Shown piece by piece: positions 27,496 through 29,052 of a stretch of 47,949 bases of DNA. The first letter of the stretch is position 1. Each line of letters opens with the position of its first letter. The translations under genes were made by a program, and so were the position numbers. This DNA comes from Roseiflexus sp. (GTDB taxonomy: Bacteria > Chloroflexota > Chloroflexia > Chloroflexales > Roseiflexaceae). Where the stretch lies: NCBI GenBank assembly GCA_017743475.1, contig JAGHYV010000033.1:1-47949 (forward strand), in the 5' to 3' direction. The notes beneath the pieces were generated by a model that saw nothing but the letters and a program-made list of their open reading frames with translations, ran no database searches and was not told the origin of the DNA.

Positions 27496-27681
27496 ATGGC
27501 AGAGAAGAAATCGAAGACCGATGTTACTGCGCGCGATAAGAGCGGCAAGCCCACCAATCACAACTGCGTAAACTGCGGGGAGCGCATTATGAACGACCGC
27601 GAGATGGTGGTTGTGATGGATGGGCGGCGGCGAAACAAGACGTATCACCATCGCGCATGCTTTCAGAAGTCTATCGCTTGA
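27496..27681 (+). CDS. 61-residue putative zinc-binding protein
   Basis: The ORF codes for a small charged protein with a basic, low-complexity N-terminus (KKSKTD, DKSGKP) and a compact C-terminal motif: C-V-N-C at residues 25-28 and HHRAC near the end, giving a C-x2-C...H-H-x2-C set of ligands for one zinc ion. It has a GGAGAGAC ribosome binding site, its own extended -10 promoter and a strong hairpin 36 bases after the stop, so it looks like an independent expressed unit. The function is unknown; a regulator or a partner of a larger complex is possible. Confidence 0.72.
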   Translation: MAEKKSKTDVTARDKSGKPTNHNCVNCGERIMNDREMVVVMDGRRRNKTYHHRACFQKSIA

Positions 27682-27717
27682 GCATCGCCTGCATGTCCGA
27701 GTCCAAAAGGGTTTTGT

Positions 27718-27744
27718 CGGCTCATCCGTCGCGCGGGTGAGCCG
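27718..27744 (+). terminator. Intrinsic-like terminator after the small zinc-protein gene
   Basis: CGGCTCATCC and GGGTGAGCCG pair over ten positions (one G-T) around a seven-base loop; the following bases are moderately T-rich (ATCTGTTCTTCTG). It separates the small gene from the retropepsin-like gene. Confidence 0.65.
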
Positions 27745-27767
27745 ATCTGTTCTTCTGAACTGCGGGT

Positions 27768-28655
27768 ATGGTCGAGGATCGCACCCAGATCGAATTTCCG
27801 GCGCAAGGAATTACCACAATTGCGCTATGTGAGCCATTTGGCGTTCTGTGCTGTCGCGCATCCGGTCCCGGCGGTCACCCGTTGCGCGTCCTGATCGACA
27901 CTGGCACCGACCCATCAGCCGTTGATGCCCGGCTCGCGCGTCGTCTGGCGCTGCGCACCGGTGGCAGCGGTGTCGGGCATGGCGCTGCCAGCGATACCGT
28001 CGCTTTTACCGAGACTATCTTCCCCTGGTTGCGCCTGGGCAATCCGGACGCCCCTGGCAATCAGGCGCTGACCATCCGCGATCTCTACGCCCCGGCTCTC
28101 GACCTCAGCAGTCTCCCCTTTGAGGTCGACGTGGTGATTGGCTATAGCGTGCTCCGTCACCTGACCCTGCGGATAGATTTCCGGTCGCGCACGCTAACGC
28201 TGGCGCATCCCGACCTGGGATTTCCACCTGTTGGCGACTCAGGCGCCATCATTCCTGTCTCATTCTTCGAACACTTCCCGGCAATTGGTGATCTAGTTAT
28301 TGACGGTGTGACGCTTCCCAATGCAGCAATCGACACTGGCTCGAATACCGCTATTACCGTTGGACCAGACCTGGCGATGCGTCTGGGGTTGCACCGGGAT
28401 GGGACTGATGTGCGGATTGTGCATGGAGAAGGATTTGGCGGCGGTGGAGAGGTTGTGCGTCGTCGTTTCGATCAGGTGCGATTGGGTCCGTTTACACTAA
28501 AGGACGTTGATATTGATGCGCCTCTAACATGGGCTGGCGACCTGGGGCGGCGCTCGCGCGCAACGATCGGGATGCAACTCCTCTCCCGTTTCGCCACTGT
28601 CATCATCGATTATGGGCGGGAACAGGCGGCTCTCGAACCTGTCGAGTTAACCTGA
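27768..28655 (+). CDS. Two-lobed retropepsin-like aspartyl protease
   Basis: This 295-residue protein has two copies of the aspartyl protease core in tandem. The first has VLIDTGTDPS (Asp44) followed about 75 residues later by the hydrophobic-Gly strand DVVIGYSVLRHL. The second has AAIDTGSNTA (Asp189) followed by RATIGMQLLSRF. Each half thus looks like one retropepsin monomer, so the chain may fold as a two-lobed, pepsin-like enzyme without needing to dimerise. No signal peptide or membrane segment is seen, so it is probably cytoplasmic. The ATG at 27768 lies 23 bases after a terminator hairpin and has only a weak GCGGG site; a slightly different start cannot be excluded. The substrate is unknown. 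Confidence 0.75.
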   Translation: MVEDRTQIEFPAQGITTIALCEPFGVLCCRASGPGGHPLRVLIDTGTDPSAVDARLARRLALRTGGSGVGHGAASDTVAFTETIFPWLRLGNPDAPGNQALTIRDLYAPALDLSSLPFEVDVVIGYSVLRHLTLRIDFRSRTLTLAHPDLGFPPVGDSGAIIPVSFFEHFPAIGDLVIDGVTLPNAAIDTGSNTAITVGPDLAMRLGLHRDGTDVRIVHGEGFGGGGEVVRRRFDQVRLGPFTLKDVDIDAPLTWAGDLGRRSRATIGMQLLSRFATVIIDYGREQAALEPVELT

Positions 28656-29052
28656 GAAGCACCCCTGTCAGAGAATGCCCGTCGCCAAGTCCGTGCCTTG
28701 CTCCTGCCGCTCCGTATAGGCTTACAAGAGTAGGCTTTTGTGAAGATTCTGCATTCCTTTTCTGGTTTTGAGTTTCAGGACGCCTAAACTCCCCCTTCTT
28801 CCCTTGTGGAAGAAGGGGGCGGGGAGGATGAAGGGCAAAAACGCACGGGAACGCAGAGAATTGCTGATCTCCACCAGTAACTCTACCTTGAGAGCCTGTA
28901 TGGGTACAGCGTTGCTGCGCCCGCTGCACCCATCGCTGCGCCCGCACCCCGCTCCTATTACAATCGCCCAATACCAACATCCTTCCCCCTGTCTGCTTGC
29001 GTATCATCTCCACAGGAAATAACCATACCATACATGCATTCCGAGATCGATC
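28656..29052. other. Intergenic region containing an interspersed repeat
   Basis: No gene is supported in these 397 bases. The centre holds a copy of the repeat described at 28745-28866. The last part is pyrimidine-rich and leads to the lipoprotein gene; no clear -35/-10 pair was found. Confidence 0.5.
28745..28866 (-). repeat. Interspersed repeat, copy A, with a perfect hairpin
   Basis: Read on the minus strand this roughly 120-bp stretch aligns with 31733-31853 on the plus strand: CTGCGTTCCCGTGC, TTTTTGCCC, a long C/G-rich hairpin and GGCGTCCTGA occur in the same order. The hairpin arms CCCCCTTCTTCC and GGAAGAAGGGGG (28791-28819) are perfect complements around a five-base loop. The copies are about 3 kb apart in inverted orientation. 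Confidence 0.65.

Follow-up and report, generated by a model that had tools for sequence, protein, structure and literature searches.

A conserved two-lobed retropepsin-like protease of Roseiflexus, probably cytoplasmic, and its place among bilobed bacterial chains

In the window (the whole stretch of 47,949 nucleotides of a Roseiflexus sp. contig that was analysed), one open reading frame encodes a protein of 295 residues in which a DTG triad and a hydrophobic-Gly motif appear twice. Since the pepsins presumably arose when a single-lobe ancestor that formed dimers was duplicated and fused (PMC2761423), the locus raises the question of whether the two halves of this chain build one active site and, if so, whether such a fused form is exceptional in bacteria. 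The two units, noticed in a sequence-only reading of the locus, were confirmed: both halves were recovered as PF13650 domains above the cut-off, and their motifs proved invariant. The features of the gene are as follows.

27768..28655, plus strand: gene of the two-lobed retropepsin-like aspartic protease (whole ORF, 295 aa, ATG start)
27870..28148, plus strand: N-terminal Asp_protease_2 lobe (PF13650; 27.9 bits, E 1.3e-5, above the cut-off)
27897..27905, plus strand: DTG of the N lobe, codons 44-46, followed by Thr47; Asp44 putatively catalytic; invariant in 31 homologues
28131..28142, plus strand: hydrophobic-hydrophobic-Gly of the N lobe (VVIG, residues 122-125); G125 invariant
28296..28574, plus strand: C-terminal Asp_protease_2 lobe (PF13650; 35.5 bits, E 5.8e-8, above the cut-off)
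28332..28340, plus strand: DTG of the C lobe, codons 189-191, followed by Ser192; Asp189 putatively catalytic; invariant in 31 homologues
28560..28571, plus strand: hydrophobic-hydrophobic-Gly of the C lobe (ATIG, residues 265-268); G268 invariant

The motifs read VLIDTGT and DVVIG in the N lobe and AAIDTGS and RATIG in the C lobe. In the Pfam hmmscan the whole protein matched PF13650 in two stretches (58.1 bits, E 1.4e-15), and gag-asp_proteas also matched in two stretches (E 2.5e-11). Each lobe passed the curated PF13650 cut-off of 24.3 bits alone in the six-frame search and carried the D-[TS]-G and hydrophobic-hydrophobic-Gly psi-loop motifs, which places the protein in this family. The likeness of the lobes to each other was weak (BLASTP E 0.23); hhalign of the N- and C-lobe profiles put DTG on DTG and hhG on hhG over 102 columns at E 0.0013, with a probability of only 18.

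Homologues were found in 46 of the 158 genomes of the class, nearly all from two families of Chloroflexales. A genome of the same genus encoded a protein 98% identical, MAGs (three of them named Roseiflexus) encoded proteins 83-85% identical, and the whole set spanned 46-98% identity to the 295-aa protein. In the alignment of 31 non-identical Chloroflexales sequences, D44 T45 G46 T47 D48, G125, D189 T190 G191 S192 N193, and G268 were invariant (31/31). A chance pair of motifs would not be kept in this way, and none of these relatives has lost either DTG, a loss proposed earlier as evidence against the two-lobed reading. The dN/dS values of whole-gene pairs with unsaturated dS were approximately 0.04-0.07 and low in both lobes; judged from these alignments, strong purifying selection acts on the gene. 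At the protein level the N lobe was more conserved than the C lobe in all pairs except the closest. The host genome comprises 4.97 Mb in 206 contigs, and a tblastn search of plasmids gave no match to the protease.

AlphaFold2 run on the single sequence produced a poor model (pLDDT 36.8), which was remedied by a 10-sequence alignment from the window and the genome contigs (pLDDT 76.5, pTM 0.80; unreliable at residues 54-83, where pLDDT was <50). The program may be recalling the common fold. The top fold match, clearly first, was 9iy9, a putative endopeptidase of Bacteroides fragilis (Foldseek E 1.1e-12; VIA Z 18.3, rmsd 3.9 Å over 257 residues, model 1-290). Pepsin-type enzymes, renin and penicillopepsin among them, came next, with Z of approximately 14-15 over 225-242 residues (model ~12-294); the superposition on renin 2bkt had Z 14.4 and rmsd 3.4 over 225 residues (model 15-293). 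Foldseek's own pepsin alignments had a high rmsd (7.8-12.6 Å among those listed), and the angle between the lobes may therefore not be that of pepsins. Because a lobe has at most approximately 150 residues, superpositions of 225-257 residues span both lobes, which the model thus places as in pepsin, and Asp44 and Asp189 should then meet in one cleft. Structure prediction, another of the proposed checks, therefore came out on the side of a pepsin-like arrangement, and it is most likely, on the evidence of the model and its superpositions, that the two Asp residues share one active site. The search of PDB sequences with the protein or the family profile gave no significant match.

We consider it likely that the protein is an aspartic endopeptidase of the cytoplasm whose single chain acts as an intramolecular pseudo-dimer; catalysis, the Asp–Asp contact, the cytoplasmic location, and the flap are the parts that we infer. 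Its two retropepsin-fold (Asp_protease_2) lobes, joined head to tail, would form a single pepsin-like pseudo-dimer, with the attacking water held jointly by Asp44 of the N lobe and Asp189 of the C lobe. The cleft between the lobes would hold the substrate under a flap, probably supplied by the poorly modelled N-lobe stretch 54-83. As to the location, no part of the chain reached the hydrophobicity expected of a signal or membrane segment by Kyte–Doolittle hydropathy (19-residue window, whole protein): the maximum was 1.45, and 1.19 within the first 40 residues. Together with the start codon, aligned in nearly all homologues, this makes it likely that the protease resides in the cytoplasm; the location proposed at the outset thus agrees with the hydropathy profile, which gave no sign of a secretion signal. 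Another consideration fits the cytoplasm poorly. According to the residue 218 argument cited in PMC2761423, Ala at this position accompanies neutral-pH activity, so Ser/Thr after both DTGs would lead one to expect an acid optimum.

Two features lie just upstream of the protease.

27496..27681, plus strand: zinc-ribbon-like ORF of 61 aa just upstream of the protease (weak Prok-RING/DksA-type matches)
27716-27746, plus strand: terminator-like hairpin, 14 bp, between the zinc-ribbon ORF and the protease

The zinc-ribbon ORF adjoins the protease in most Roseiflexaceae loci and not in the other family; it is 84-98% identical among loci, being more conserved than the protease itself. The hairpin would argue against a simple operon, but hairpins are no more numerous in the region than in shuffled sequence. 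In two Chloroflexus loci the protease follows an apparent photolyase gene; the remaining contexts differ, and the gene context across the homologous loci points to no function. Downstream of the protease, a perfect 12-bp inverted repeat (CCCCCTTCTTCC...GGAAGAAGGGGG) was noted at 28791-28819; the only exact copy in the genome is this one, so by that test it is not a dispersed repeat.

The gene occurs in one copy per genome and has been kept across two families while its neighbors change, which makes conserved housekeeping processing or regulatory cleavage the likeliest role. A proteolytically silent descendant, in which the two-lobed fold is kept for peptide binding or regulation as in some inactive pepsin-fold proteins, would be in keeping with the lack of an evident substrate or partner gene and with a gene context that differs between the families. 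The fold matches also included conglutin gamma (4pph), a pepsin-fold seed globulin that is not known to be an active protease. With catalysis lost, however, one would not expect the DTG triads, the hhG glycines, T47, D48, S192, and N193 to be invariant in 31/31 sequences, and we regard a silent protein as unlikely.

If the active endopeptidase is the preferred reading, is the chain unusual? The tandem arrangement, two PF13650 lobes in one chain, was found in other Chloroflexota proteins too. The same genome encodes a two-lobed Asp_protease_2 paralogue of another subfamily (L083, G000:C156:54952-55701, minus strand), and further two-lobed chains are its relative L084, L079 and L080 from the same class, L071-L073, extended by a PDZ domain (as tested on L073), L074, and L070. 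In the present assembly the six-frame match of L083 contains a single TAG, whereas the corresponding part of L084 has an open frame. In L070 (G236:C11) a TPR-like N-terminal region precedes two Asp_protease_2-like lobes, the second of which has VASG in place of DTG and has lost the Asp. The Chloroflexota tandem chains resemble the 295-aa protein in their two DTG/DSG lobes and similar length, but belong to other subfamilies, with 15-23% identity (alignment of five chains) and DTGA, DSGA or DTGG motifs. When five such chains were combined into a profile, it returned two-lobed matches from further Chloroflexota genomes that cover most of the profile; single-lobe Asp_protease_2 chains are also common in Chloroflexota. 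A search for homologues with the same duplication, which had been suggested, was thus successful, and the idea that such a chain is unusual for bacteria did not hold: two-DTG chains recur in Chloroflexota, even within this genome, and the structure 9iy9 had already been solved.

It was the fold search that led to the entry 9iy9; a sequence match to it was later obtained with a related single lobe. Here too a single chain carries retropepsin-type lobes: FIFDTGAG and an hhG motif (VLG) mark the first, NIG at the corresponding place marks the second, and the alignment displays the first-lobe Asp only. The entry differs in being named as exported ('Exported protein'), in a match that begins only at residue 146 of its chain numbering, and in an identity of 16%. 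Neither 9iy9 nor the tandem retropepsins of bacteria were the subject of any paper in the literature searched.

The Roseiflexus protein can be set against both retropepsins and pepsins. Strictly defined, retropepsins of family A2 are single-lobe homodimers, whereas here two lobes lie in one chain with a predicted bilobed fold. With pepsin family A1, including the shewasins, the protein shares a bilobed fold of a single chain in which each lobe holds one Asp (found here in the AlphaFold2 model, as a prediction), and also DTG[ST] in each lobe; a Thr or Ser behind DTG is the pepsin motif definition (PMC11957791), and most of the other chains compared have Ala or Gly there. On the other hand, the Roseiflexus lobes belong to PF13650, the structural Z to A1 enzymes is below that for 9iy9, and PF00026 (pepsin) was not matched by the 295-aa protein even with hmmscan admitting E values as high as 1, so by sequence it falls outside A1. 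In the lobe tree, which held no pepsins, each lobe of the Roseiflexus protease family formed a clean clade with a support of 100, which dates the fusion before the divergence of the two Chloroflexales families; the deep branches between the tandem families were weakly supported and fit one fusion as well as several. The suggestion made at the outset, that such a chain would be an intermediate between retropepsins and pepsins, found no support here and stays a conjecture. The age of the fusion and the presence, in both lobes, of DTG[ST] in place of the DTGA typical of retropepsins raised the idea of a cytoplasmic two-lobed retropepsin family branching near the origin of pepsins, either as a preserved early duplication-fusion state or as an independent invention of the pepsin plan. 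We think this quite unlikely.

The single-lobe bacterial relatives RloA, RimB, and APRc share with the Roseiflexus protein the retropepsin-type lobe with DTG and an Asp dyad from two lobes, and differ in being single-lobe chains. RloA is secreted and is a dimer in the crystal and in solution (PMC12239564), RimB was modelled as an active dimer (PMC11957791), and APRc was described as retropepsin-like (PMC4140852). That RloA and RimB act as dimers, and that our prediction covered the monomer only, leaves some room for lobes pairing between two chains in a domain-swapped dimer with two active sites; we judge this very unlikely, since 225-257 residues of the monomer model can be superposed on bilobed enzymes made of one chain. 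Least probable of all is a true pepsin (MEROPS A1) of eukaryotic origin, as may hold for some bacterial pepsin homologues: the bilobed fold, the similar length, DTG[ST] in both lobes, and the predicted intracellular location, shared with the bacterial pepsins (shewasins; PMC2761423), would fit it, but Pfam gave PF13650 twice and PF00026 never, the PF00026 search of the genome itself was empty (though control genomes gave no match either), and the gene has been inherited through two families of Chloroflexales.

The intramolecular pseudo-dimer is thus the preferred reading, and its bearer is not unique, because two-lobed chains recur in Chloroflexota and the bilobed fold has already been solved in Bacteroidota (9iy9). 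The Roseiflexus two-lobed protease is a new family-level member of an already known bilobed bacterial kind and no missing link. Fusions of two retropepsin-type lobes in one bacterial chain exist in several subfamilies. Among them the Roseiflexus protease, conserved across two Chloroflexales families, devoid of a signal peptide by hydropathy, and with every catalytic motif kept, would be a suitable case in which to test the idea of a single-chain retropepsin inside the cell.
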